Shown here one piece after another: positions 16,979-45,588 of a stretch of 64,000 nt of DNA. Numbering within the stretch: the stretch's first letter is position 1; every line of letters starts with the position of its first letter. Location: positions 1 to 64,000 of the IMG/VR virus record IMGVR_UViG_3300046167_000585; one strand, written 5' to 3'. Source of the stretch: a virus. The notes under the pieces were generated by a model. The model did not search any database, was not told where the DNA came from, and worked only from the letters and a program-made list of their open reading frames with translations. Both the position numbers and the translations under genes were made by a program.

Positions 16979-17446
16979 TTAATTAGCTAAAGGATTATCA
17001 AGGCTTTGTTGTATTCTAGTCATTAAGTCTTCTTTAGTCTTATCAACTTTAATTTCAAACCTATCTAGTTTAGTATCATAATTAGTTAACTTAGTATCTA
17101 CTGATTGTAACTTAGTGTCTACTTTTGACTCAAGATTCCATTGACTGTTACGAAGATCAGTCATATCTTTTTTAAGTTCTATTTTAATTGCGTTAGCATG
17201 TTCTTCTATACGTAGCACTTCAGAAGAAGTCTTTGCCATAGAAGCACTAATGTCTCCTAAGTCTAAATTTGCTAATGCTTCAACTTTTTGATACAAAAGA
17301 AAGCCACCATACAGTGAACCTAATATTGTTGAAATTAAAGCAAACAATGCCATAATACTAGCCCAACTAAACTTAAAACCTTTTACTTTGATTTGTTTGT
17401 TAGGTAAGTCTTCAACTTCTTTAATCTTTTTTTCTAAATCATCCAT
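16979..17446 (-). CDS. membrane-anchored coiled-coil protein
   Basis: This 155-residue protein has a charged N-terminus, one membrane helix at about residues 28-52 (IMALFALISTILGSLYGGFLL) and a C-terminal coiled coil (repeats of KVDTKL, SVDTKL, NYDTKL at 108-130). This topology (short inside, long coiled coil outside) is common for small phage proteins next to lysis or tail genes. Its start shares a base with the stop of the upstream exported protein (TAATG), so it is translated with the exported cassette. A spanin-like or superinfection role is possible but not shown. Confidence 0.65.
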   Translation of the reverse strand: MDDLEKKIKEVEDLPNKQIKVKGFKFSWASIMALFALISTILGSLYGGFLLYQKVEALANLDLGDISASMAKTSSEVLRIEEHANAIKIELKKDMTDLRNSQWNLESKVDTKLQSVDTKLTNYDTKLDRFEIKVDKTKEDLMTRIQQSLDNPLAN

Positions 17447-17874
17447 TAGTTATCAAACTCCGTATTCGTTTGTAGAGCTTTTAATAATTCTATCTCTTGT
17501 CGTAACTTTTGTACTTCTAGTCTTCTACGTTGTAATTCTAACTGATACAGTGTGTTACAATTAATTCTTTCTTTTGGCGCATCTAACGGTATTATTATTC
17601 TAGCATAAATACCTAAGTCTTTTGTTTGTGGGTTGTTAGGGTCTTCTGTACCAAGGATAGGAGCAACTGCGTTATTTACAATACCCGTCAAGCCAAATTC
17701 AAAATTCGTTGAACCGCCAATAGAATTAGTACAGTCCAGGTCTCCTGCTTTAATTCTATCCGTACCGTGACTACTACCACCACTAGGGAGTTGTAAGTTT
17801 AGAGAAGTACTATTAGCTATTACTTGTGAACAACTCAACATCAATAATAAAAAACTTATTTGAATTTTGAGCAT
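17446..17874 (-). CDS. exported protein with C-terminal coiled coil
   Basis: This 142-residue protein begins with a clear Sec signal peptide (MLKIQISFLLLMLSCSQVIANS). The Cys at position 15 could instead act as a lipidation site. A Ser/Gly/Asn-rich beta-type middle with two cysteines follows, then a helical tail with heptad spacing (LELQRRRLEVQKLRQEIELL, residues 109-128). It overlaps the upstream gene by 19 bases and the downstream gene by one base. Being exported rather than ejected, it should reach the host periplasm or outer membrane during infection. Family unknown. Confidence 0.65.
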   Translation of the reverse strand: MLKIQISFLLLMLSCSQVIANSTSLNLQLPSGGSSHGTDRIKAGDLDCTNSIGGSTNFEFGLTGIVNNAVAPILGTEDPNNPQTKDLGIYARIIIPLDAPKERINCNTLYQLELQRRRLEVQKLRQEIELLKALQTNTEFDN

Positions 17875-18230
17875 ATTCTTGTAGCTAGCAATGTTTGACT
17901 TTCACTGCTACTCCTTAGTTTAGACAAAGAACATATATACCTTGCTCTTTTTATATTGTTTTCTGTAATGTAAACATCAAACTTAACCTCTTTTAAATAA
18001 TCAAGAGGAATAATTCGGTATGCTGTAACAAACGGAATTGGTTTCCAATCGTCAGAGAATACCCCTATTTCATAGTACCGTACATCTTCTCTTGAGTTCC
18101 AAAGCCTCATAGTTGTTTTCTTTACATCATCTACACCTGATATTTCCCACTTTGGATAGGTAGGTGTCATTTCATGACTTAGCACTGCTCCGCTCAGCAG
18201 CAATAAACATAATCCTATTGAGCCACGCAT
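17856..18230 (-). CDS. exported protein, chaperone-like beta fold possible
   Basis: This 124-residue protein has a signal peptide (MRGSIGLCLLLLSGAVLSHEM). The mature part is beta-rich (KWEISGVDDVKKTTMRLW; EVKFDVYITENN) and has a pair of cysteines (YICSLSK and RICSKFK). The pattern of an exported beta-sandwich next to a pilin-like protein recalls periplasmic usher-type chaperones, but the domain is half the usual length, so this is only a suggestion. It overlaps the upstream pilin-like gene by 16 bases and the downstream gene by 19. Confidence 0.6.
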   Translation of the reverse strand: MRGSIGLCLLLLSGAVLSHEMTPTYPKWEISGVDDVKKTTMRLWNSREDVRYYEIGVFSDDWKPIPFVTAYRIIPLDYLKEVKFDVYITENNIKRARYICSLSKLRSSSESQTLLATRICSKFK

Positions 18231-18706
18231 TCAGCTAATACTACAGCTTTATATGCACCACCTGGGAAAGCTCTGTTACCACCATACACGGCTACAGACG
18301 TACTTTGAAACCAAGCACTTCCTGCAACGCTCAGTGGATAAGAACGCATTGCACCAGTTGTAGTTGATGCTGCTTGATAACCAGACATTCCACTTTCACC
18401 ATGTGCTTTAAGAGTTACAGCACCAGTCCAAGTTACATTATCTGATAACGATGGACTTGAGCTAAAGCTAGTCGGGTAAGTTATTTGTGCATAGTAAGCG
18501 TTAGCTAACGTAGTATCAAATCTTATAACTGGTACTTGACCTGCACTAGCAGGGTCTGTTGTTAAAGTATAAGCGTTAGGGTTACCATATATTCCTGGTA
18601 CAGTAGTTGCTACAGTACATCTGCTTTCAACAGTTCCATCGATATCTGCTGCTAATATTGGAGTTGCTGCCATTATTAGACCAAATGTTATTAGTAATTT
18701 TTTCAT
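18215..18706 (-). CDS. exported pilin-like protein
   Basis: This 163-residue protein starts with a textbook signal peptide (MKKLLITFGLIMAATPILAADI). The mature protein opens with a Cys segment (DGTVESRCTVATTVPG) and ends with a second Cys (KAVVLAECVAQ). Between them it is Ser/Thr/Gly/Ala-rich with alternating beta pattern. Two cysteines, this composition and about 145 mature residues resemble fimbrial major subunits. The family assignment is by pattern only. It overlaps the upstream gene by four bases (ATGA-type coupling) and lies in a run of exported proteins, so a secreted or surface-assembled role in the infected cell is plausible. Confidence 0.65.
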   Translation of the reverse strand: MKKLLITFGLIMAATPILAADIDGTVESRCTVATTVPGIYGNPNAYTLTTDPASAGQVPVIRFDTTLANAYYAQITYPTSFSSSPSLSDNVTWTGAVTLKAHGESGMSGYQAASTTTGAMRSYPLSVAGSAWFQSTSVAVYGGNRAFPGGAYKAVVLAECVAQ

Positions 18707-19593
18707 TGGTATTGCTCCTCTATCATAGTATTCATAAGTTTATCTTGTCCTAGACTCCTTAAAGCTTTTCTATTATCCACTATATCTTTATCTTTTAAAA
18801 CAATAGATTCTCGGTATATCTTACCTGGGATAGTTGCAACATAATATGTATTAATATTTGTTGCTTGATTTATAACCTGTAATAATGCAGCTTGTGATAC
18901 TTCATTTGCAATAGTAAGTGCATTTTCTGTAGCAGCTAAAAGAGATTCCATGTTTTCTTTATCTTCTGCTTCGTCTTCGTCTTCTTTAGCTTCTTCTTCT
19001 TCTTCTAATAACTCTTTATCAGTTTCTGCTTGTGCAAGTTGAACTGATTCATCTTGTAACGCATCATAATCTGGTATATCAGGTATTGGGGGCGGTTTAG
19101 GTTTTACATACCCAGGACAGTTAGGGTCACTCTGTGGATCAAAACAAGGATCAAATCTATATATGTATCTAACATCTGCATTTTCTATACTGCCTGTGCC
19201 TTCTTGCTTAAGTCTGCCATCACCAAATACTGCGATAGGTGTATAAGGCAATGCAATTGTTCTTCTTATTTCTATACCACCTTCGCGTTGTGACCAGTCT
19301 TGTACGTCTTGAAACACATAACCACCACCTACTTTATCGTTTTCTAAAGTAACAATATAATTATCTTCTTTGTTTTTAATTGGTGTGTATTTGTAAGTAA
19401 CACCTGATATATCCATACCGCCAATACCATCAGCGCCTAAATAAATAGGTGTCATTGACCACTGTAAACCATTGATAGCTGCGTTAGGTGTGTAGCCGAA
19501 TGTGTAGCTAAAAGAAGATAAAGGCAGCAGCAGCAGTACCCATAATGCTGAGAACCTTATCACGTTTTTCTTGTGCAGTAATTTCATCTTCAT
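18703..19593 (-). CDS. exported protein with Pro/Lys- and Glu-rich middle
   Basis: This 296-residue protein has a signal peptide of the type VIRFSALWVLLLLPLSSFS, cleaved before YTFGYTPNA. The mature N-terminal 120 residues are beta-rich. A cysteine pair and proline stretch follow (PCFDPQSDPNCPGY, then KPKPPPIPDIP). Next is a very acidic segment (EEEEEAKEDEDEAEDKE, around 195-215) and a helical C-terminus. Similar exported proteins with this Cys/Pro signature occur in marine phages, to my recollection. Starts at 19593 and 19587 are both possible. Its first 86 bases lie inside the upstream gene in another frame. Confidence 0.65.
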   Translation of the reverse strand: MKMKLLHKKNVIRFSALWVLLLLPLSSFSYTFGYTPNAAINGLQWSMTPIYLGADGIGGMDISGVTYKYTPIKNKEDNYIVTLENDKVGGGYVFQDVQDWSQREGGIEIRRTIALPYTPIAVFGDGRLKQEGTGSIENADVRYIYRFDPCFDPQSDPNCPGYVKPKPPPIPDIPDYDALQDESVQLAQAETDKELLEEEEEAKEDEDEAEDKENMESLLAATENALTIANEVSQAALLQVINQATNINTYYVATIPGKIYRESIVLKDKDIVDNRKALRSLGQDKLMNTMIEEQYQ

Positions 19594-20080
19594 CCTCTGG
19601 CATAGGTATTAGGTCAGTTCTAACCTCCCATGCAGCTTTGGCTTCATTGCCTATTAAGCCATCTATTGGACAAGGAGTTCCTGCATCCATCATAGCTTGC
19701 CATACGTCTTTATCTTGGCACATTATTGATACTGCGGCTACTTTCATACCCATATCATATAATCTACCTGCTTTTTTTAATCTAAGACAATTCTCTTCAG
19801 TATAAGTAGCACCTAAACTTAAAGATAATATTTGTGTGCCTAAAGCACCACTAGAAGATATAGTACATAAATCAGAATTATTACCACCTACATTAGGTGA
19901 TATAGCTGAAGGAGGAGGAGACTTAACTGTAGTCTCATTTGTACCTGTAGTTGTTACAGTAGATGTAGTGTTCTGTGTTATTGAGCTTTCATCTACTGCC
20001 ATTACAGGTAATACAAAAATAATCCAAAAACATGCAACAATACTTAAAGCTATAACATTGTTGCGCAATCTGTTAGACAT
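19508..20080 (-). CDS. exported or membrane protein with conserved cysteine core
   Basis: This 190-residue protein has an N-terminal hydrophobic segment, probably a signal peptide (LSIVACFWIIFVLPVMAVDES), then a Thr/Ser-rich linker. A compact core with spaced cysteines follows (EENCLRLKKAGRLYDMGMKVAAVSIMCQD; GTPCPIDG). The C-terminus is short and hydrophobic (MGTAAAAFIFF). The core pattern recurs in exported proteins of other marine phages, to my recollection. It opens the exported cassette; its start shares one base with the stop of the 175-aa virion gene. Its last 86 bases also encode the signal peptide of the next gene in a different frame. Confidence 0.65.
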   Translation of the reverse strand: MSNRLRNNVIALSIVACFWIIFVLPVMAVDESSITQNTTSTVTTTGTNETTVKSPPPSAISPNVGGNNSDLCTISSSGALGTQILSLSLGATYTEENCLRLKKAGRLYDMGMKVAAVSIMCQDKDVWQAMMDAGTPCPIDGLIGNEAKAAWEVRTDLIPMPEDEDEITAQEKRDKVLSIMGTAAAAFIFF

Positions 20081-20607
20081 TAGCCTGTAGGTTTAGCGTT
20101 AGTAAACTGAGTATTTAAGTTATCTGTACCTGTACTATTAAGTACATTAACTGTACTTACAGGAGAACCTGCAACATTTGTATTAATAGTCCAGGCATCA
20201 ATTATAGTTTTAAGATATTTTTGATCAGCATTCCATTTAAAACCTTTAGCTTGTTCACCTTTTAATGTAATATCTTTGCCCATTACACTGTTAGCATTAG
20301 GAGTTTGATTTCCTGTAACGAGTGTTTGAGCAAATTCAGTTGTTTGTTTTTGAGTTAATAAAGCAACTTCTGCATTTGTTTTTTCTTGACCAATTGCATA
20401 ACTAACTGAAGCTTGTAAAGCACTTTGCATTGCTCCTAAATATACAGTAGCAAAATCTGTCCCTGTTATTCTACCTAGTTGATACTGTGCTTCTAAGTGC
20501 GCAGTAACAGATTCCATTAAATCATCAAATACACCAGTACCTGTAATTACATTATTAGTATTTGTTACTGAACTACCTTGTGTTAGTGATGCATTTGTTA
20601 GTGCCAT
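20080..20607 (-). CDS. probable virion-associated protein
   Basis: This 175-residue, mostly helical protein is rich in Thr, Ala, Gln and Asn. It has a central helical stretch (DDLMESVTAHLEAQYQLGR; GAMQSALQASVSYAIGQE) and a disordered Thr/Asn C-terminus. It lies two genes after the major capsid gene, where N4-like phages carry small virion genes. No motif defines a function. Ribosome site and short spacing (4 bases) to the upstream 205-aa gene indicate co-translation. Confidence 0.6.
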   Translation of the reverse strand: MALTNASLTQGSSVTNTNNVITGTGVFDDLMESVTAHLEAQYQLGRITGTDFATVYLGAMQSALQASVSYAIGQEKTNAEVALLTQKQTTEFAQTLVTGNQTPNANSVMGKDITLKGEQAKGFKWNADQKYLKTIIDAWTINTNVAGSPVSTVNVLNSTGTDNLNTQFTNAKPTG

Positions 20608-24230: not shown

Positions 24231-24737
24231 TCAAAGTTTACTTCTATTTAACAATGGATCATTAATAATAGCATCGTTGTATTTACTATCCATTGCATTA
24301 GAATGATCTACTTTTTTCATGTTTTCTTCATGTTGTCTGTTAACTCCAGATTCTTGTTCAACAAAAGTTAGATCATCTAAATCAGCTTTACTATTAATAC
24401 TTCTAGACTTAGATAGTTCAGTTTGAGTTTTAGCTTTCTTAAATTCTACATCTACTGCGTTTTCTTGCGCTTTAGCTGTTTCGTTAGCTATTTGAGCTTG
24501 TAATAGTTGCATTTCAAGTTGTGCTTTTTGTTCAGCCATTGGATTAGGTTGTGGCTGATATTCTTTAATTTGTTTAGCTAAGTCAGGCATTTTACGTAAT
24601 CTAGCTATATCTGCTAATATTAATTGAGACATTGCTGGGTCCATATTATTACCCATTGTTTGTAACATAAATGATAGCTCTTGTGCTTTTTCGTTGTCAG
24701 CTTCAGCTGTAGATATATTTAATTTAATATCATACAT
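24231..24737 (-). CDS. portal fragment 5 (C-terminus)
   Basis: The corrected frame reads [17 protein letters not shown] before this Met. The piece is a long Gln/Ala/Lys-rich helical tail ([19 protein letters not shown]) ending [10 protein letters not shown], as in N4-like portals whose C-termini form an extended barrel. Confidence 0.65.
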   Translation of the reverse strand: MYDIKLNISTAEADNEKAQELSFMLQTMGNNMDPAMSQLILADIARLRKMPDLAKQIKEYQPQPNPMAEQKAQLEMQLLQAQIANETAKAQENAVDVEFKKAKTQTELSKSRSINSKADLDDLTFVEQESGVNRQHEENMKKVDHSNAMDSKYNDAIINDPLLNRSKL

Positions 24738-26370
24738 ACCACCTAAATCTTCACGATTAATAGCAACAAACTCTTCGTTAGTTACTCTTATTATCTCTTC
24801 AGTCAGATAAAAACTCAGAATTCATAGATATTATTTTGCGTCCTATTTGATTAATACCATCTGCTAATCTTCTAAGTATTCCTAACTCACGTTTAGATGC
24901 TGCATCTAATGCACTTCTAATACCTGTAGCTGTATTACCTAACGCTGAGCCACTAATACCACTATTAAATGCTTTAACACCTGTTAATGATTCAGCTTCG
25001 TTGTTTTGAAGATTTAACATGTTTAATGCACTATTAGGTATTTCAGGATACGTATCCATGTGAAATGCTTGTCTAGGGGTCTACATTAGAATTAAACTTA
25101 TAATCTGCACCTTGTTCAAACTTACGAGCATTTGTAACATCTAAAGCATCTTTACGAATACCCATTTGTCCATTAGCAGACCTACCAATAATATCAATCA
25201 TGCCTCGTGTTACAGCACCAATAATCTTTTGGTTATCTTCTAATAATGCACCATCTGGTTCACCGTAAATGTGTTTACGTACAGGTAAGTACTGAACTGA
25301 TACAAATGGTAGTTTTTTATCAGGAAATGGGTTAGACTCCATTCTAATTAATACATCACCTACCCAAGTAGCAATAAATGGTTCTACTTCACCAGTATCG
25401 TTAATATCCCAGTAGCCCCAATATTCATAAACAATTATCTTTTTTACGTGGGTCGTCTTTAAACTTAAAGTTTGTTTCATCTTCTAAGTTATGGTCTGGT
25501 TGTGCTAATGGTGCAGCATTCTCTAATATAACATGTTCTAAATTTGAGTATCTACCGTCTTTTTTAAGTTCAGCCATAGATGTTTCAAAACTGTAAATAA
25601 TAAAGTTAGCTTTATCTAAATTACCTAAACAAGTTGGATCAATAATTACATTGTTATAATCACATACTTCTAATTCTGGTTGATTTTTAATAACATTAAT
25701 TTGTTCTTCTATACGAGTACCATTAGGTACAGGCATCATTGGCACACCGTTTGCCATTGTTAATTCATGTGCTTCTTGTATTTCAGGAGGAGTTTCTTTT
25801 TTATAAGCATCAGGATTTTGTTCCATCATTTGATGTAATTGTTCATGCATTTGAGCTGATTCAACAGATTCTACAAAATTCAAATACAGGAACTTCTACT
25901 TCTACAATTTCATCTTCATATTCCCATCCAACTTTAACTATTACTGTTCCTTCATCTACAGCAGTACGGACGTATTCATCAATAAATGCAGTTTTGTCTA
26001 TCTTACAATTGATTTGATAATTAAGTAACAATCCATTTTGTATAGCAGACTCTTTATCTTCAAATGTCATTGGGGCTGTATTAAATAAATCATCTGTAGA
26101 TAAAAATGGTTCACTTAACGCAGCATAACGCCATTCAGCTTGTTTTCTAATAAGTTTAGGAACAATTTTTGATCTGCCTTTCTTATTGTTAATTGTTTGT
26201 TCACCATTTAAAGCATCTATCCAACCATCAACATCTAATACATGTGACGTGTGAGAAGATTGAGCTTCATCGTAATCAGCTTTAAGTTCTAATAAATCAG
26301 GTGGATTTTTCCAATCTACAAGCTTTTTTGGTTCACTTAAATCTACATCTAAATCATGCTGTTTTGCCAT
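24231..26370 (-). CDS. N4-type portal protein, interrupted by four frame errors
   Basis: Five overlapping or adjoining frames read as one protein of about 711 residues (N4 portal gp59 is 763). The breaks are at homopolymers 25875-25878, 25440-25445, 25076-25079 and 24809-24813, and removing one base from each gives a continuous frame. The order of regions fits a portal: N-terminal wing ([21 protein letters not shown]), stem-region helices, a crown with [12 protein letters not shown], and a long helical C-terminus rich in Gln, Ala and Lys. It lies upstream of the scaffold and capsid, as in N4. The separate pieces should not be read as different genes. Confidence 0.85.
24799..25059 (-). CDS. 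portal fragment 4
   Basis: Helical crown region following VDPRQAFHM in the corrected frame, with [20 protein letters not shown] and a conserved [12 protein letters not shown] end. A break at 24809-24813 separates it from the C-terminal piece. Confidence 0.65.
25073..25480 (-). CDS. portal fragment 3
   Basis: This continues [18 protein letters not shown] in the corrected frame. It includes [20 protein letters not shown] and [20 protein letters not shown], the most conserved-looking part of the portal. It stops in a tag created at 25076-25079. Confidence 0.65.
25425..25883 (-). CDS. portal fragment 2
   Basis: This continues [13 protein letters not shown] in the corrected frame. It carries a mixed helical and beta region ([20 protein letters not shown]) and ends in wrong-frame DNCL after the break at 25440-25445. 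The internal Met is not a real start. Confidence 0.65.
25861..26370 (-). CDS. portal fragment 1 (N-terminus)
   Basis: Residues 1-169 of the portal from the true start ([10 protein letters not shown]). It contains the segment [20 protein letters not shown], typical of N4-type portals, and ends in a wrong-frame FCRIC after the break at 25875-25878. Confidence 0.7.
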   Translation of the reverse strand: MAKQHDLDVDLSEPKKLVDWKNPPDLLELKADYDEAQSSHTSHVLDVDGWIDALNGEQTINNKKGRSKIVPKLIRKQAEWRYAALSEPFLSTDDLFNTAPMTFEDKESAIQNGLLLNYQINCKIDKTAFIDEYVRTAVDEGTVIVKVGWEYEDEIVEVEVPVFEFCRIC

Positions 26371-26689: not shown

Positions 26690-28180
26690 TTAATTCAATT
26701 TAAAAAAATTTTTAATTGCATTAATATTTAATTCTTTTTGTTTTGGTTTTTTAACATAAGCAGGTAATGGATTATCGTCTCTACCCCATAATTGTTTAGC
26801 TTGTTCATACCCTGCATCAGTTTGCCAATAAGAGGATTTTTCATCTACATCATAATATCCTTGTTTATTTCCTTTAGCATCTAATGCTCTTTTAAAACCT
26901 GGTATTTCTCCATAATCTACAGTTAAACTTTTTAATTTTCTATTATCTTTTATTTTTTCATCAGGACTCATATGAGGTTTATATTTAAAAAGTCCTTTAT
27001 TACTTTCTATTGAATATTGTTCTGCTTTTTCTTCGTTTCTTTTAATTTTTTTATCTGACCCTGATGTTTCACTTGATGTATATTTTCTTTGATAAGGTTT
27101 AATTTTCTTTGAATCTTTATTAAAATATTTTTCAGCTAACTCCATGCCTTTTAATGCAGAAGTTCCTGAACCTTTAATAGGCGTTCCAAATTCAGCGTAT
27201 TTAGTATTTTTATCATCAAATAAATCTTCTGCTTTTTTAAATCCTCTAGAAGTGTTATTACCAGAACCTACAGGCAAATTTTTTGAACTAGGTAATCTTC
27301 CTTTTTCTGATTGATAACCAGTAGCATCACGAATAGATTGAGCATTAGGGTCTAAAGATAGTTTAAACTTTTTATCTAATCTATCTCGATCAAAAATATT
27401 TGCCCAGTAACCTTTACCTTCAGGGTGTCTTGAACCCATATTAACATTTTTAGTCATTGCAGCTAAATCTTTAAGTCTAATATTATCTGCAGCAATTTTT
27501 TCCATAGAAGCCTGATCTGTATTGAGTATTCGATCAGTTAATGCAGCATCTATTCTAAATAATCCTTCAGGATTTTCATTTATATTTGGAAAAGTATTAG
27601 CAAAACTATCCATGTTTTGATTAATAAATGAATCTCTAATAACATCAACATCTTCAGTATTAGAAGTGTTTGTCATAACAGATTCATATTTTTCTGGGTT
27701 TTTAGCTTTATCTTTTAGTATTTCTATTGTTAAAGCAGATTTTTCAGCAACTGACAAATCATCTAACTTACTAACTGAAGCAGCTATATTTGCATTCATT
27801 GCTTCTATTCCTGTAGAAACAACTAATTCATTATTAGGTTTTAAAGTTTCTCCAGTATTAGATTGTAATGTAGTACTACGATAAGCAGCTATTTCACTTG
27901 CTTCTTGTTCGCTCATATGTGTACTTGTAGGTGTTAATTTACCTGCTTTAAGCAAAGCTACTACACCTTTAGAAGTATATACTCTACCATTTAATAAACT
28001 TGGTACATTAACCCATTTGCCACTATTTTCAGGATATTCTAAAGTCATAGATAACTCAGAATGCTCTTCTCCTGTTAAAGTATTTACATAAATAGGTTTA
28101 CCTTCTGTGGTTACTTTGTCAGTTTTTTTAAGTTTATAATCTTTATTTAAATTTTTTAAATGTAATTTATCTGCTGCCAT
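26690..28180 (-). CDS. large soluble protein, possible virion protein
   Basis: This 496-residue protein is rich in Lys, Asn, Ser and Asp. The N-terminal 110 residues form a compact domain (KPIYVNTLTGEEHSELSMTL; WVNVPSLLNGRVYTSKGVVA). Similar short segments occur in multidomain phage virion proteins, to my recollection. The rest is charged with low complexity (KSLTVDYGEIPGFKRALDAK near the C-terminus). It overlaps the upstream DUF1353-type gene by 14 bases. N4 has its muramidase near this position, but no muramidase motif can be seen here. Confidence 0.6.
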   Translation of the reverse strand: MAADKLHLKNLNKDYKLKKTDKVTTEGKPIYVNTLTGEEHSELSMTLEYPENSGKWVNVPSLLNGRVYTSKGVVALLKAGKLTPTSTHMSEQEASEIAAYRSTTLQSNTGETLKPNNELVVSTGIEAMNANIAASVSKLDDLSVAEKSALTIEILKDKAKNPEKYESVMTNTSNTEDVDVIRDSFINQNMDSFANTFPNINENPEGLFRIDAALTDRILNTDQASMEKIAADNIRLKDLAAMTKNVNMGSRHPEGKGYWANIFDRDRLDKKFKLSLDPNAQSIRDATGYQSEKGRLPSSKNLPVGSGNNTSRGFKKAEDLFDDKNTKYAEFGTPIKGSGTSALKGMELAEKYFNKDSKKIKPYQRKYTSSETSGSDKKIKRNEEKAEQYSIESNKGLFKYKPHMSPDEKIKDNRKLKSLTVDYGEIPGFKRALDAKGNKQGYYDVDEKSSYWQTDAGYEQAKQLWGRDDNPLPAYVKKPKQKELNINAIKNFFKLN

Positions 28181-28763
28181 GCGTATTCCACTTTGCGTTT
28201 ACTTTACGATGTTTATTCCAAGCTGCAAATCCACCTAACTTTAAACCATAATAAGCTAAGTAATTAATTAACCTGAAGCCATTTTGTATTATGTTTACAT
28301 CTCTAAATATAATGTCTAATTGCTTTTGAGTTTTCATGCCAATAGTCTTCTTTTTACCTTTACATAATAAGGTTTGGTATTTATAACCGTAGTCATGTAT
28401 TAAACCTCCAACTAATAATACACCCATTGGTGATAACCAAGTATGTAAGAATTTAGGTACTGATGCTCCATCAAATACAAATCCTTTAGGTATTACTAAT
28501 TCTTGACCATCAATAACATAGTGATAATCTTTAACAATTTCCCACTTACGAGATACAAATAACCAAACTTTAAGTCCTCCCCAAAAGCCTTTACCTTTAG
28601 TAGGTATAGGAATAGGTTTCATATGTGGCATACTAATTGCTTTAAACTTTAGATTAGGTTCTACATCTCTATCTAAGAACTTCCATAGACCTCCAATAAT
28701 TATTAATATAATTACTAAACTAAACTGCCAAAATTGTAATGCGTAAGTCGTTAATGTTTCCAT
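28167..28763 (-). CDS. DUF1353-type membrane-anchored protein, possibly lysis-related
   Basis: This 198-residue protein has an N-terminal membrane helix (FWQFSLVIILIIIGGLWKF). The domain that follows matches the DUF1353 pattern: IPKGFVFDGASVPKFLHTWL, then LVGGLIHDYGYKYQ with a His-Asp pair, and a later FRDV. DUF1353 proteins are common in phages next to holins and have been suggested to act on the envelope, but no activity is proven. Directly upstream lies a multi-helix membrane protein. In the absence of a recognised endolysin this is the best lysis candidate. Confidence 0.75.
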   Translation of the reverse strand: METLTTYALQFWQFSLVIILIIIGGLWKFLDRDVEPNLKFKAISMPHMKPIPIPTKGKGFWGGLKVWLFVSRKWEIVKDYHYVIDGQELVIPKGFVFDGASVPKFLHTWLSPMGVLLVGGLIHDYGYKYQTLLCKGKKKTIGMKTQKQLDIIFRDVNIIQNGFRLINYLAYYGLKLGGFAAWNKHRKVNAKWNTHGSR

Positions 28764-28764
28764 A

Positions 28765-29196
28765 TCACTTCCCCTTTGCTAATTGTGCGCCAAAATAAAA
28801 TTCTATAATCATACTTGCCCAGGCAAATATCTCGTCATACTTAATTAACCCGTTTATTACTTCATACTCTATTACATCTTGTGTTAAGTTAATTCCTAGT
28901 ATGCTAAATCCTTTATGTACTATCGGTACTGCTGTAGGTATATTAAACCATACGGGTGCTATCTGCGTAAATATTATTAGTCCTAGTATAGTTAATATAA
29001 TAATTCGTCTATTCCAAGCAGCCATAGGGCTTTCTTTATCTGCCCAAGTTCTAGCTTGATTAATAGAGTCATTGCGTGCTTGCATGTTCTCTATCATCAG
29101 CTTTTGTTGATCTGAAGCTGCTTGACTCTTCAGAGCTATAAGCTTAGCAATAAAACCTAATGCTATTGGAGCTATATTTGTTATAAAAGCTATCAT
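28765..29196 (-). CDS. holin-like multi-helix membrane protein
   Basis: This 143-residue protein has hydrophobic helices at about residues 1-20, 65-90 and 120-138. Between the first two is a charged helical hairpin (AASDQQKLMIENMQARND; WADKESPMAAWNRRI). The arrangement fits the three-helix phage holin families. It is followed after one base by the DUF1353-type gene and preceded by a 37-residue basic peptide, forming a small membrane and lysis block. Assignment by topology and neighbours. Confidence 0.6.
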   Translation of the reverse strand: MIAFITNIAPIALGFIAKLIALKSQAASDQQKLMIENMQARNDSINQARTWADKESPMAAWNRRIIILTILGLIIFTQIAPVWFNIPTAVPIVHKGFSILGINLTQDVIEYEVINGLIKYDEIFAWASMIIEFYFGAQLAKGK

Positions 29197-29197
29197 T

Positions 29198-29311
29198 TTA
29201 GCTTGGCTTTACCCATCGCTCTACTTTCCAAATAACTACATTAAAAACGTATTTAACTTTATTCATAAATGTTTGTTTTACAAATTGTCCTTTCTTGTTC
29301 TTTGGTTGCAT
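29198..29311 (-). CDS. 37-residue basic, amphipathic peptide
   Basis: A small gene with a strong AAGGAG site 6 bases before the ATG. The product (MQPKNKKGQFVKQTF) is basic, with an amphipathic, partly hydrophobic segment KYVFNVVIWKVERW. It could associate with the membrane. It sits between the 62-residue membrane protein and the holin-like gene. Function unknown. Confidence 0.5.
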   Translation of the reverse strand: MQPKNKKGQFVKQTFMNKVKYVFNVVIWKVERWVKPS

Positions 29312-29322
29312 TATATTCTCCT

Positions 29323-29511
29323 TTATAATAATTTAAGTAACAGCTCTCCTACACCAAAATCTGTTGCAATCATAACACCAAAACCTATTAACAATCCTTT
29401 ACCCATCGACATAAACTTTAGATTCATGTTTTTAATCTCTCTTACATCTTTATAGAGATCTATAATCTGTTTTTCATGTTTATCTAATTGTGCTTGTTGC
29501 TTAGCCGTCAT
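29323..29511 (-). CDS. small coiled-coil membrane protein
   Basis: This 62-residue protein has a charged helical N-terminal half (MTAKQQAQLDKHEKQIIDL) and a C-terminal membrane helix (LLIGFGVMIATDFGVGELLL). Small phage proteins with this shape often belong to holin or haemolysin-like families. A GGAG site precedes the start. Its leader contains a fossil fibre-gene start (29528-29560). Confidence 0.55.
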   Translation of the reverse strand: MTAKQQAQLDKHEKQIIDLYKDVREIKNMNLKFMSMGKGLLIGFGVMIATDFGVGELLLKLL

Positions 29512-36631: not shown

Positions 36632-37372
36632 TTAATTATCAAAAACAACAACCATAACTCTATCGTTGTCTACTTGAGTACCATTACCAGCTCGTCTAAT
36701 GTCTACTCGAATTGAATCATTATTTCCTTGCTCTTCACAAAATGCGTGTTCGTCATTGTACGAACCCGGCAACCCTAAAGTTACAAAAGAACAAGCTATT
36801 GTTGAAAGATTATTAGCGTACCTAACAAAATAATATCCAGTTCCTTGGTCTGTAATACTAGAAACATTATGACTATCATTAATAGCTACTGTGCCTGTTC
36901 CGTTCAAAACGCACCAACACTTTGCAGTAAACGCTGACAAGCCTCTGCCATCTGCTAAAACTTTAAATTTTTCACTTGATGCTTGGTTTCTTGCAGATAA
37001 TATTGCTTCACCTGAATCAGCACCAGCTTTAATCATAAGTCCTTGACCGTTATCAACATCTTCATTGTGAATTAAAGCAGCAAAGTCACCATCTACAGAA
37101 GTTTTAACGTGAAATCTATAACTTGGATTTACTCCTATTCCTACATTTTCATTTGAATCAATTGTTATAGCTGTAGCATCAGCACTAGACGAGATACCAG
37201 CTACTCCAACTCCTGTTAGATTAGCACCACTACCAGCAAAGCTAGTTGCAGTCATAACACCACCGTCACTTATACTAGCTACTTCTGTGCCATTGCTTTT
37301 AAATTTAATATCACTACCACTACCGTCAGCGTTTAGTATGAGGTCTTCTGAATTTGTTCCTATTGTACTCAT
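36632..37372 (-). CDS. short tail-fibre protein 9
   Basis: This 246-residue protein begins MSTIGTNSEDLILNADGSGS. The tip domain is a paralogue of fibre 11: GLSAFTAKCWCVLNGTGTVA and NDSHNVSSITDQGTGYYF here, against AFTAKAWVNFNGANTVS-type sequence there. The FTAKxWxxxNG signature is frequent in receptor-binding tips of phages. Confidence 0.75.
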   Translation of the reverse strand: MSTIGTNSEDLILNADGSGSDIKFKSNGTEVASISDGGVMTATSFAGSGANLTGVGVAGISSSADATAITIDSNENVGIGVNPSYRFHVKTSVDGDFAALIHNEDVDNGQGLMIKAGADSGEAILSARNQASSEKFKVLADGRGLSAFTAKCWCVLNGTGTVAINDSHNVSSITDQGTGYYFVRYANNLSTIACSFVTLGLPGSYNDEHAFCEEQGNNDSIRVDIRRAGNGTQVDNDRVMVVVFDN

Positions 37373-37998
37373 CCCGCTATCTCCATTAGTGTAATAATTG
37401 TTTCGTTCTGGCTGTCTTGAAATTTTATTGTTCCTCCACCATATTTAATTGCCCATAAAGCATATGTAGTAGCAGAAGTTGTACTTGGAGAATCTATTTT
37501 AGTTAAATTAACCCATCCTCTTTTTTCGTGCCTTTCTGAGCCACCACCTGGATAAACATAATCAGCTATAGCTACAGGTGTTTCAAAAAAAACTGTAGTT
37601 CCTCTTTTAAACATAAAACCAAGTCCAGAGTCTGTACCACCCATTTGGTCGTGTATTCTATGAATTTGTGCTGACATTAAAATTTTACTGCTTGTGCTTG
37701 AAGGTGTAATTGTTGCAGTTGCTCCGTGTGCTACCCAAGCTGAAGAAGAAGTAAAAGTGGTTTGTGTGTTATATGAAGTTTGGACAACTTGCAAAACTTT
37801 ACCAAAACTACCACTAATTTTAGAACCAGCTATTGCTGCACTTGAATTAATATCAGCATTAACTATTGTACCATCTACTATTTTACCTGCTGTAATTGCA
37901 TTGGCTGCAAGCATATCTCCGTCTACTATACCATCTGGTAAGCCACCGACTGACAAGCCTGAGATCGTGCCTGCGTCTGAATCAAATACTATTGCCAT
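37369..37998 (-). CDS. short tail-fibre protein 10
   Basis: This 209-residue protein is a mosaic. The start (GTISGLSVGGLPDGIVDG) is that of fibre 6. The tip (VAHGATATITPSSTSSKILM; DSQNETIITLMEIAG) is that of fibre 3. It overlaps fibre 9 by four bases. This is direct evidence of stem and tip exchange inside the array. Confidence 0.75.
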   Translation of the reverse strand: MAIVFDSDAGTISGLSVGGLPDGIVDGDMLAANAITAGKIVDGTIVNADINSSAAIAGSKISGSFGKVLQVVQTSYNTQTTFTSSSAWVAHGATATITPSSTSSKILMSAQIHRIHDQMGGTDSGLGFMFKRGTTVFFETPVAIADYVYPGGGSERHEKRGWVNLTKIDSPSTTSATTYALWAIKYGGGTIKFQDSQNETIITLMEIAG

Positions 37999-38001
37999 AT
38001 C

Positions 38002-38694
38002 TTAATCTCCAAATATATTTCCACAAAATTTCTGAGCATCAGTATATTGACCACCTTCCCTATGCTCTATTACAACTGAACCTACAGCAAAAGTACCAAA
38101 AGAATCTGAATAATTACCATATTGAGAATATGCTTTTGACATAGAAGTAAGAGAGTAATTAGTGTTCGCCATATTATTACTAAAATTAATTGAGTAATTT
38201 CCAGTTCCATTATCTGTAATACTACTTACATTGTGACTATCATTAATAGATACAGTATTAGCACCATTAAAGTTTACCCAAGCTTTTGCAGTAAACTGTG
38301 ACAAGCCTCTCACACCATCATCCGTAAGAGAAAGTGCTGTTGTAGTTCCCATATTAAATGAAAGTACACCACCCGCATTTCGTATAGTCCACGGGTTAGT
38401 GTGACGAGTATCATCAATAACTAAAGATACACTTGAATTATCTGATATTTCTAAACATTTATCTGAACCCATAGGTGTTACAGGTGTAGCTGTACCAATA
38501 CCTACACTTTCAGCAGAAGTAATAGTTATAGCAGTAGCATCAGCACTAGATGTAATACCAGAAGGTATATCAGAAGTCTTAGCTAATGTTCCAGAACTTG
38601 CTGGCAGAGTAAATGTTTGGTTAGTTGATCCTGAATCAGGAGCCTTAATAATGCTTGAGCCAGAAGTAGTTCCGTTTAATTTAATTGTACTCAT
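38002..38694 (-). CDS. short tail-fibre protein 11
   Basis: I start at the ATG at 38694 (MSTIKLNGTTSGSSIIKAPD), which overlaps the stop of fibre 12 in an ATGA. A longer frame upstream has no ribosome site. The 230-residue product has a TFTLPASSGTLAKTSDI segment typical of phage fibres and the FTAKAWVNFNG tip shared with fibre 9. Confidence 0.75.
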   Translation of the reverse strand: MSTIKLNGTTSGSSIIKAPDSGSTNQTFTLPASSGTLAKTSDIPSGITSSADATAITITSAESVGIGTATPVTPMGSDKCLEISDNSSVSLVIDDTRHTNPWTIRNAGGVLSFNMGTTTALSLTDDGVRGLSQFTAKAWVNFNGANTVSINDSHNVSSITDNGTGNYSINFSNNMANTNYSLTSMSKAYSQYGNYSDSFGTFAVGSVVIEHREGGQYTDAQKFCGNIFGD

Positions 38695-39278
38695 AATATA
38701 ACCCACCTTGAACCAGCCGATAGTGTAATATCTACCCCTGCGTTCATTGTTATTGGACCAGTACAAGAAGCACTTTTACCACTAGGTATAGTGTAGTCTG
38801 TTGTAATAGTCTGTGAATTTTGTACAAACACTTGGTCTGTTCCTCCACCAGTAGCACCTGAAGATACTGCAGCCCATGAGTTATCTCCTCGTAAATATGT
38901 AGTAGAACTTGCTGTACCTGTAGCACTCATCATAGCAATATCAACTGCTCCTGCTGCAATAGTAAGCGTTGTTGAACCAGTTACATCACCAGTATGAGTT
39001 GCATTACTTACTTTAGCAGTATTAGCTGTAATAGCATTTGCTTGGCTAGTAGTAATACCTACTTTAGCCGTGTTAGCTGCAATTTCTGCGTTAATTGAGT
39101 TAGCTAATTTGTCTGCTGTAACAGCATCATTTACAAGTTCTGAAGTGCCAACAGCATTTGCACCTATATCTTCTACAGTAATAACACCGTCTACAATTTT
39201 AGCCGTTGTAATGCTATTATCAGGTATATCAGAAGCAGTTACGGGAACTCTTGCTGGCTGTTTTCCTATATATGGCAT
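38691..39278 (-). CDS. short tail-fibre protein 12 (first of the array)
   Basis: I start at 39278 (MPYIGKQPARVPVTASDIPD), with AGGAA nearby and an overlap-free position after the basic-protein genes. The 195-residue product has the stem NDAVTADKLANSINAEIAAN of fibre 8 and the tip SCTGPITMNAGVDITLSAG. PYIGKQP starts are common in marine phage fibres, to my recollection. Confidence 0.75.
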   Translation of the reverse strand: MPYIGKQPARVPVTASDIPDNSITTAKIVDGVITVEDIGANAVGTSELVNDAVTADKLANSINAEIAANTAKVGITTSQANAITANTAKVSNATHTGDVTGSTTLTIAAGAVDIAMMSATGTASSTTYLRGDNSWAAVSSGATGGGTDQVFVQNSQTITTDYTIPSGKSASCTGPITMNAGVDITLSAGSRWVIL

Positions 39279-44428: not shown

Positions 44429-44649
44429 ATTACCTCGTATAACTCATTGATTAATGTAGACTTTTTCTTACGTCTGTCTAAATTAATTCCTCTAGCCTTG
44501 CCCATTGCTTCTAAAGCTACAGGTGATAACTCTGCAAGTTCTGCTCTTGCTAGCTCTTCGCAGTCAGTTTCCCACATACATTTGAAGAAGTGTACACATT
44601 TTTTTGCAGGTGTTGGTTTAGCTTTTGTTTTAAATATATGTTTTTTCAT
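44425..44649 (-). CDS. small basic protein with SAP-like C-terminus
   Basis: This 74-residue protein has a Lys-rich N-terminus (MKKHIFKTKAKPTPAKKCVH) and a SAP/Rho-N-like C-terminus (LSPVALEAMGKARGINLDRR, then KKKSTLINELYEVM), a helix-turn-helix pair that can bind DNA. It is translated immediately before the terminase and could help DNA recognition or packaging. Overlaps both neighbours by four bases. Confidence 0.6.
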   Translation of the reverse strand: MKKHIFKTKAKPTPAKKCVHFFKCMWETDCEELARAELAELSPVALEAMGKARGINLDRRKKKSTLINELYEVM

Positions 44650-44861
44650 ATTTCTATCTCCTCTATTTGAATAGGTCGGTCTTTTAGGTATCCTTCACAG
44701 TCAGTCAGTAATTCATCTCTACAAATCAACAGACTTTCATTAGGTTCACATAAAACATTTGGAGGAATGATTAACGGATCTACAGGTTCACGAACAAACG
44801 GATTGCTTTGACTACAAGATGTAGCCAATAGCGCTAGTAATACTATATTAAGAATTCTCAT
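44646..44861 (-). CDS. small lipoprotein, spanin-like candidate
   Basis: I start at 44861 (MRILNIVLLALLATSCSQSN) because GAGGAG lies 7 bases upstream; a longer frame has no site. The lipobox LATSC is clear, so the 71-residue product should be a lipoprotein with a short Pro/Cys-rich mature part (three further cysteines). Size and proline content are like Rz1-type outer-membrane spanins, but its partner is not identified. Overlaps the upstream gene by 14 bases. Confidence 0.6.
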   Translation of the reverse strand: MRILNIVLLALLATSCSQSNPFVREPVDPLIIPPNVLCEPNESLLICRDELLTDCEGYLKDRPIQIEEIEI

Positions 44862-45588
44862 TAGAAATCTCCTCATATTCAGTTTCGACAGTATCCTGTT
44901 TCCTAGCAATAATGTCACTCTGCGCAACGTGCTCTGCTGTTACTGCACCGCTTTGTATCATCTTCAATTGTTGCTGCGCTAACGCCCGAGTTGTCTCACG
45001 GAGCTCATCGATAGACGAATTGCTATAACTAACGTCAACTTCTATCTTCGCTGCTTCAGGCGCTTTCAGTTGTGTGATTAAACATTCAGCAGCCTTTTGA
45101 CGCACGGTCTCACTTTTAGCACTACGCATGAGCTCTGCTTGAGTATTAATCGCTTCTTGATGTACATCCATATTAAGAATATGAACAGGCACCAAAGTCC
45201 TTTCTAAAATCTTATGTACAAGGTCTCCCTTGTTATAAGCCGTAGAAAACGATGCAATCGTTTTCATAGGCGTATTCTTATCTACTAATCTCTGATAACG
45301 GTCAGGAAACGTTTTAGCGTAAGCTATCGTATTAGAGTCCCCGATTAACTTATAACTAACAAACTTAACAGCGTTAACATAATCTAACATCTTATAACGC
45401 CCGCTTTCAATCACATCAGCAAACCCAACCAGGTTTTCTTTGTAGACGTCTCTAAACTCATCGCCCTCTGTACTATTAATAAACTCTATCATCTCATCAG
45501 TCACATTGTGACGAAACTTCTTAGGCATGCTAGCCTGCAGTTGTTCTTTTGTTAGTACGACACCACTATCTTTTTTAACTAAATCCAT
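44848..45588 (-). CDS. candidate small terminase or packaging factor
   Basis: This 246-residue, mostly helical, charged protein begins MDLVKKDSGVVLTKEQLQAS. The N-terminal half is alpha-helical with MLDYVNAVKFVSYKLIGDSN, and the C-terminal coiled coil includes RETTRALAQQQLKMIQSG. Position (two genes before the large terminase, co-directional) and helical composition fit a small terminase. No HTH is certain. The start shares a base with the stop of the upstream gene. Confidence 0.55.
   Translation of the reverse strand: MDLVKKDSGVVLTKEQLQASMPKKFRHNVTDEMIEFINSTEGDEFRDVYKENLVGFADVIESGRYKMLDYVNAVKFVSYKLIGDSNTIAYAKTFPDRYQRLVDKNTPMKTIASFSTAYNKGDLVHKILERTLVPVHILNMDVHQEAINTQAELMRSAKSETVRQKAAECLITQLKAPEAAKIEVDVSYSNSSIDELRETTRALAQQQLKMIQSGAVTAEHVAQSDIIARKQDTVETEYEEISNENS

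Follow-up and report, generated by a model that had tools for sequence, protein, structure and literature searches.

A six-gene cassette of exported proteins in marine phages and its probable role as a spanin substitute at lysis

The DNA analysed here, called the window below, comprises 64,000 nucleotides (nt; positions 1 to 64,000) of the IMG/VR virus record IMGVR_UViG_3300046167_000585, whose full size is 67,309 bases. It derives from an N4-like (Schitoviridae-type) marine phage encoding a virion RNA polymerase, an N4-type major capsid protein (phrog_1357), an N4-like RNA polymerase, a terminase and a primase. Positions 16979-20080 hold a cassette of six overlapping genes which, judging from sequence comparisons, is most likely a mobile envelope module that marine phages export and use instead of spanins at lysis. 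We put at roughly 0.6 the probability that it is an outer-envelope lysis module taking the place of the phage spanin. Lysis is indicated by a slot swap: next to the same holin-like genes, some phages carry the cassette and others a spanin-type gene pair. The cassette is common in marine phages, including phages of SAR11, which are among the most abundant marine bacteria. If the proposal is correct, the annotation of lysis genes in marine viromes would change, and a two-protein membrane-fusion machine would prove to be replaceable by an unrelated exported complex.

The cassette genes, their products and their distribution

The six open reading frames (ORFs) lie on the minus strand, overlap head to tail by 1-86 nt each, and are named in transcription order A (190 amino acids, aa), B (296), 163, 124, 142 and C (155). 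Gene A overlaps by 1 nt a virion structural gene at 20080-20607 (phrog_2050), which flanks the cassette together with the gene of a 1024-aa protein (phrog_2220); strand and overlap suggest that the cassette is co-transcribed with the capsid genes. Because the differences from relatives fall mostly at third codon positions (0.38-0.53, versus 0.13-0.17 at position 2), the six ORFs can be regarded as genuine, constrained genes. No function is described for any of them in PHROGs, Pfam or NCBIfam, and sequence profiles from Pfam, NCBIfam and the PDB gave no usable family for the six proteins; coiled-coil profile matches of C to unrelated proteins were disregarded.

Genes A, B and C constitute a core. 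The A protein (19508-20080) has a signal peptide, a Thr/Asn/Ser-rich stretch with a PPPSA motif and four invariant cysteines, and matches phrog_20531 (function unknown; E 1.7e-13). The B protein (18703-19593), for which no family was found in PHROG, Pfam or NCBIfam, combines a signal peptide, a conserved N-terminal half, an acidic linker and a conserved C-terminus. The C protein (16979-17446) consists of one N-terminal transmembrane segment followed by a coiled coil, predicted to be periplasmic, and ends in NPLAN. Between B and C lie three optional middle genes for exported proteins, each with two cysteines that are invariant in alignments: the immunoglobulin (Ig)-like or pilin-like 163-aa protein (18215-18706; C30 and C160), the 124-aa protein with a single PapD-like Ig domain (17856-18230; C100 and C120, on neighbouring strands) and the 142-aa protein with a helix-like C-terminal tail (17446-17874; C48 and C106), which matches phrog_37374 (function unknown; E 6e-6).

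Export signals were called among non-redundant relatives by a simple N-terminus rule of our own, a heuristic rather than SignalP. Signal-peptide-like N-termini were found in 108 of 112 A, 97 of 106 B, 94 of 95 163-aa, 85 of 91 124-aa and 80 of 90 142-aa proteins; among control genes of the same loci 130 of 753 passed, 87 of these belonging to one family with multiple transmembrane segments. A preliminary description of this stretch had noted six overlapping genes, four clear signal peptides, a 'probable' fifth at 20080 and a membrane anchor in the sixth. All of this is borne out, and it was if anything understated: the 'probable' signal peptide, that of A, is as good as the rest, and the cassette encodes five signal-peptide proteins plus one membrane-anchored coiled coil. 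The description's broader suggestion, a distinct system of exported proteins made together, is likewise supported.

The C protein has the properties expected of an i-spanin, namely an N-terminal transmembrane segment, N-in orientation (deduced from basic residues ahead of that segment, without a topology program) and a periplasmic coiled coil. Across 38 diverse C proteins the only three invariant alignment columns are the N-P-L near the C-terminus. This tripeptide lies within the last eight residues in 94 of 101 ORFs of the C family. Of the other seven, two are pieces of a frameshifted gene in L054, one is an extra coiled coil in L127, one has an NPM ending (L142), and three, from L117, L177 and L179, were collected by the C profile and are Rz-like or stand beside Rz1-type lipoproteins. 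Other ORFs show an NPL ending in 15 of 8310 cases, but six of these turn out to be C genes of named phages not caught by the profile, and the background is about 0.1%.

The cassette is widespread. In IMG/VR, relatives number 146 for the 124-aa protein and 62 for the 163-aa protein, and for A at least 590 were confirmed in viral contigs. After merging of loci with 150 nt exactly shared in the cassette, 221 loci reduced to 120 non-redundant ones, and 79 of these carry the exact six genes in order; most of the remainder run into a contig end or have no middle genes, and gene order is never broken. The search of other marine phages for the same gene order that had been proposed at the outset thus finds it far beyond chance. 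Where A is followed by at least 4.5 kb of sequence (81 loci), C is present in 80, the lone miss being frameshifted. All three middle genes occur in 65 of these 81 loci and none of them in 15, which retain the A-B-C core; a single locus, on a poor contig, has them in part. The 163- and 124-aa genes are adjacent wherever both are seen.

Gene A was found in 11 of 50,697 named phage records, the identical 11 being returned by four queries: six Pelagibacter phages, two Roseobacter phages, two Manatee Spring genomes and the Mediterranean fosmid phage uvMED S28-C10. All 11 belong to the 15 loci without middle genes, and the A-B-C order is kept in those examined in detail; tblastn of the 124-, 163- and 296-aa proteins against named phages gave no matches. 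Loci with middle genes carry major capsid proteins of phrog_1357 (8 loci), phrog_1328 (16) or phrog_267 (6), so that the cassette occurs next to three unrelated major-capsid families. A scan of bacterial genomes returned three contigs of metagenome-assembled genomes (MAGs), which are probably phage and do not fix the host. Two contigs of a Rhodobacteraceae MAG (Water_Bin34; L144 and L145), with relatives of the 124-aa protein, are probably binned phage contigs and provide a weak host hint. In the literature searched, which largely leaves subscription journals uncovered, we found no title or abstract start describing the cassette.

Holin-like neighbours and apparent exchange with a spanin-type pair

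The usual neighbour of the cassette is a pair of small genes, c7 and c6. In the window c6 (28765-29196, minus strand) encodes a holin-like protein of 143 aa with three hydrophobic segments, as judged by eye, and its partner c7 (29323-29511, minus strand) a 62-aa protein with a coiled coil and a C-terminal transmembrane segment; a DUF1353 gene, c11 (28167-28763, minus strand; PF07087, phrog_1158), completes the c7-c6-c11 group. The c6 protein aligns in profile comparisons with a protein of phage Mosig that passes PF11351 'holin of 3TMs' (pairwise E 1.3e-5) and with the protein preceding A in uvMED S28-C10 (pairwise E 4e-11). Cassette and c7-c6 are 9 kb apart in the window, whereas most other loci have them side by side; of 67 distinct loci whose sequence extends at least 2.5 kb past C, 55 have c6 no more than 2.5 kb from C. 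DNA comparison suggests that the two segments are transferred together. The window matches L128, of the phrog_1328 capsid group, only over 17448-20096 (81%) and in c6/c7 stretches within 29054-29490, and L125 only over 18445-19999 (89%) and in c6. What these contigs have in common with the window is thus the cassette and the holin-like pair, and this pattern shows, as far as sequence comparison can, that the block moves between unrelated phages.

We then used c6 instead of the cassette as the search anchor, excluding loci with less than 1.2 kb upstream or with an identical c6. Cassette genes are present in 20 of 35 newly fetched distinct c6 loci and absent from the other 15. Several of these 15 have in the same slot, between tail or 2OG-oxygenase-like genes and c7-c6, a lipoprotein gene of 48-54 aa followed by one or two genes for small N-in coiled-coil membrane proteins. 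Over 115 distinct c6 loci, those lacking the cassette have this lipoprotein upstream of c6 in 6 of 15 cases and those with the cassette in 0 of 100. This zero is partly built in, because the cassette alone occupies the 2.6 kb scanned; moreover, the loci share ancestry. A seventh lipoprotein locus, L324, is cut by a contig end, L320 and L276 retain the coiled-coil genes at a contig edge, and L263 has an N4-like layout in which the cassette would lie elsewhere. A scan of whole cassette loci returned 29 other ORFs with a lipobox, none of which belongs by eye to the family of the slot lipoprotein. As to the coiled coils, the 84-aa protein of L322 has 'Rz-like spanin' as its best PHROGs match (E 2.8e-5), and for a 125-aa protein the same annotation comes third (E 6.1e-5), below two families of unknown function. 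A conserved 96-aa membrane protein precedes c7-c6 in the cassette-less loci opened (L322 8930-9220, L283, L313) and is a possible further member of the alternative lysis set.

The junction itself is informative. A 42-nt stretch of the L322 lipoprotein gene, beginning at codon 3, has 95% identity (E 8e-12) with the corresponding codons of A in L156; the two align in register from the start codon, and other cassette loci give similar matches. The encoded motif type, R-L/A-R-N-N within the first 30 residues, occurs in 37 of 200 A proteins and in 0 other ORFs among 13,166. Because the lipoprotein gene still has these codons in common with A, cassette and spanin pair appear to have replaced each other at one start codon, and the simplest account of the sequences is that recombination inside the signal-peptide codons exchanged the spanin pair for the cassette, or the reverse. 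We found no description of such a swap in the literature searched. Virion release was one of several uses that the preliminary description had envisaged for exported late proteins, and it is to this one that the exchange points.

Proposed role at lysis and competing explanations

By this proposal A and B would accumulate late in infection in the periplasm or at the outer membrane, joined by the three middle proteins in phages that have them. The coiled coil of C would span the periplasm, its C-terminal NPL tag docking on an outer-membrane partner that contains A or B. Holin and endolysin would first open the inner membrane and the wall, and the complex might then collapse or rearrange and so break the outer membrane. 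The PapD-like 124-aa protein would most likely act in the periplasm, with no usher involved, to hold or fold the Ig-like 163-aa protein. A further-reaching version, to which we give somewhat less than even odds, is that a Sec-exported A-B-C complex represents a third, lipoprotein-free class of outer-membrane disruption, displacing spanins in many marine phages and spreading between families as a unit, with a larger form that adds the Ig-like subunit, the PapD-like chaperone and a third exported protein.

The cassette shares with the two-component spanins (lambda Rz/Rz1, N4 gp60/gp60a) the late-operon slot beside holin-like genes, and C is likewise an inner-membrane, N-in protein with a periplasmic coiled coil and a conserved C-terminus; the outer partner in the cassette is inferred. 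It differs in having no lipoprotein, three to six proteins instead of two, and no sequence match of C to the spanin PHROGs. Unimolecular spanins of the T1 gp11 type would serve the same step, and no cassette protein combines an N-terminal lipobox with a C-terminal transmembrane segment. A lipobox is absent from all six genes of the window, and among the 120 non-redundant loci the pattern is passed by 13 163-aa, two 142-aa, one A and one B proteins. An embedded lipoprotein inside gene B was considered and dropped, being confined to a few related loci. We also scanned all frames of 11 named genomes for lipoboxes, a procedure that recovers the Rz1-type lipoproteins of Erwinia S6, L117, L177, L179 and L123. 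No credible lipoprotein emerged in HTVC115P, HTVC202P, HTVC023P, ctXG6705, Baldr or uvMED S28-C10, where every match was antisense to a long ORF; these six A-B-C phages are therefore without an o- or u-spanin candidate, and neither in them nor in the window cassette does an outer-membrane lipoprotein gene stand beside the i-spanin-like gene. HTVC033P and CRP-207 have one doubtful match each, not antisense to a long ORF, and Mosig has three lipoproteins. An unannotated lipoprotein gene overlaps the start of A in CRP-810, and a similar gene lies just before A in ct7L0027 (L136 7615-7875; L142 886-1101); it is possibly an extra outer-membrane partner in that clade.

For comparison with N4 relatives, the capsid protein of the window matches 472 named records. 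In Erwinia S6 (Schitoviridae) the order is holin, endolysin, gp090, Rz-like spanin and portal, and further on capsid, gp084, structural gp083 and gp082. In the window c7-c6-c11 precede the portal gene, with no Rz-like gene recognised, and the cassette sits between the genes corresponding by position to gp083 and gp082. The earlier statement that N4 has nothing like it here holds for the two Schitoviridae regions opened, those of Erwinia S6 and Rhizobium RHEph16. Family searches (endolysin/holin, usher, CsgG) covered 41 records, namely 40 of 119 non-redundant records and the window's own. Less than 3 kb from A, HTVC023P has an M15 peptidase, ctXG6705 a lysozyme and HTVC033P an amidase as endolysin; in Mosig and uvMED S28-C10 the gene adjoining A is holin-like. 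Pfam recognised no endolysin in the record of the window. As this linkage is only partial, the case for lysis does not rest on it.

Several observations weigh against a spanin-replacing role. In HTVC115P, HTVC202P, Baldr and uvMED S28-C10 a distance of 10-27 kb separates A from the recognised endolysin, and in CRP-810 the recognised 3TM holin is 25 kb away. Holin identity of c6 is based on topology and a pairwise profile match, and the zero in the c6 comparison is, as noted, partly built in. Five cassette-less c6 loci (L266, L271, L293, L300, L331) have neither cassette nor spanin-type genes, and a coiled-coil family of the alternative set, q125, is also present in cassette-bearing phages. None of the 38 C proteins matches the Rz-like spanin PHROGs at E 0.001. 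A coiled-coil membrane protein and an Rz1-type lipoprotein stand beside the cassette in L117 (PHROG spanin matches at E 2.9e-15 and 1.7e-13), L177 and L179, and L123 has the Rz1-type lipoprotein there, so that the cassette is not always a spanin substitute. Finally, the window phage has a small lipoprotein of its own, c23 (44646-44927, minus strand), a candidate outer-membrane partner detected by the lipobox scan far from the cassette. The coexistence with Rz/Rz1-type genes, this lipoprotein and the missing match of C to spanin PHROGs are what holds our confidence at the level given above.

The same coexistence in L117, L177, L179 and L123 would fit if the exported late proteins remodelled or protected the envelope in some other way (superinfection exclusion, receptor masking, strengthening until lysis) and merely shared the spanin slot. 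All five are exported by sequence, A-B-C is not beside a recognised endolysin in several named phages, and the middle three genes are optional. We nevertheless consider this unlikely, in view of the replacement of a spanin-type pair at the same start codon, the repeated linkage and co-transfer with the holin-like pair, and the resemblance of C to an i-spanin in topology. That resemblance could also mean that C and c23 form an ordinary two-component spanin with separated genes, A, B and the middle genes being accessory. The c23 family occurs in 12 non-redundant loci including the window, where it lies between terminase genes, and has a lipobox, an 'LLIPP' motif and a Cys pair; the lipoprotein genes of CRP-810 and ct7L0027 overlap or just precede A. 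This reading is, however, improbable: in other loci c23 lies on the opposite strand from the cassette beside an SSB-like gene, no credible lipoprotein turned up in any of the six A-B-C phages named above, and the constant partner of C is A and not a lipoprotein. Moreover, spanin pairs are normally neighbours, about 1 kb being the extreme separation found according to PMC6139136. We judge it very improbable that the proteins belong to the virion or tail and that their hydrophobic N-termini do something other than direct export. The block does sit between structural genes in the window, but the signal-peptide form with a small-residue cleavage site is seen in more than 88% of each of the five families, and the block stays while its neighbours change with phage type.

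The preliminary description had favoured a surface structure exported late in infection, with the 163-aa protein as a pilin-like subunit and the 124-aa protein as its chaperone. The modelled 124-aa protein (pLDDT 87) is one PapD-like Ig domain, and its matches are to pilus chaperones: DraB (E 7.3e-5, TM-score 0.63) and FimC with Z 10.6 over 98 residues at 3.0 A (FimC residues 1-114), a Z that is tied by an enzyme Ig domain, with MSP domains within 1. The invariant C100 and C120 on adjacent strands are reminiscent of the F1-G1 disulfide of Caf1M-type chaperones. For the 163-aa protein (pLDDT 88; the other four models reach 63-81) the best Foldseek matches are pilins, CfaB leading with E 0.013 and none below E 0.001. 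In VIA the model scores Z 7.3 at most, to Ig folds other than pilins, and pilins are missing from the top 50, an absence that is no evidence of a difference in fold. The chaperone fold and the two invariant cysteines of the 163-aa protein thus stand, its likeness to pilins is weak, and a chaperone-client pair is plausible on these models. The exported surface structure itself finds no support: usher PF00577 exceeded the cut-off in 0 of the 41 records, with a positive E. coli control, and CsgG PF03783 was found in 0 of 41, the controls being positive in 4 of 14. Like chaperone-usher pili (PapD/FimC, FimG, CsuA/B), the cassette has a PapD-type Ig fold and an Ig-like partner with two invariant cysteines, encoded always side by side; it differs in the single domain of its chaperone-like protein, as against two in PapD, in having no usher, and in the weak pilin match. 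Nor is the pair essential, as 15 of 81 loci keep A and C without it. Pelagiphages do carry curli secretion genes, as PMC9599517 and PMC7029224 report, and to that extent their curli/type VIII secretion modules resemble the cassette, a multi-gene export module common to unrelated marine phages, but none of the six proteins matches a curli family in the Pfam scan. A late pilus-like structure is accordingly a poor candidate, and we prefer the outer-envelope lysis module described above.

Other genes near the cassette and in the window

Further envelope-type genes were seen near the cassette in some phages. They include cell-wall hydrolases (L114 7718-8230, Hydrolase_2 by PHROG/Pfam; a lipoprotein form in L183 near 7162) and, by eye, a lipase-like protein (L126 13205-13912) and a nuclease-like protein with a signal peptide (L124 3880-4311). 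In HTVC115P a protein annotated as toxin-activating lysine-acyltransferase is encoded a few genes past C (L001 13285-13734). In the window, five ORFs at 24231-26370 group with portal proteins, PHROG confirming three of them; a portal gene broken up in this way points to frameshift errors in the sequencing of the record. Tail-fibre-like stretches at 37135-39131 share 84-98% DNA identity with the otherwise unrelated contigs L064 and L058, apparently a sign of recent tail-fibre exchange.

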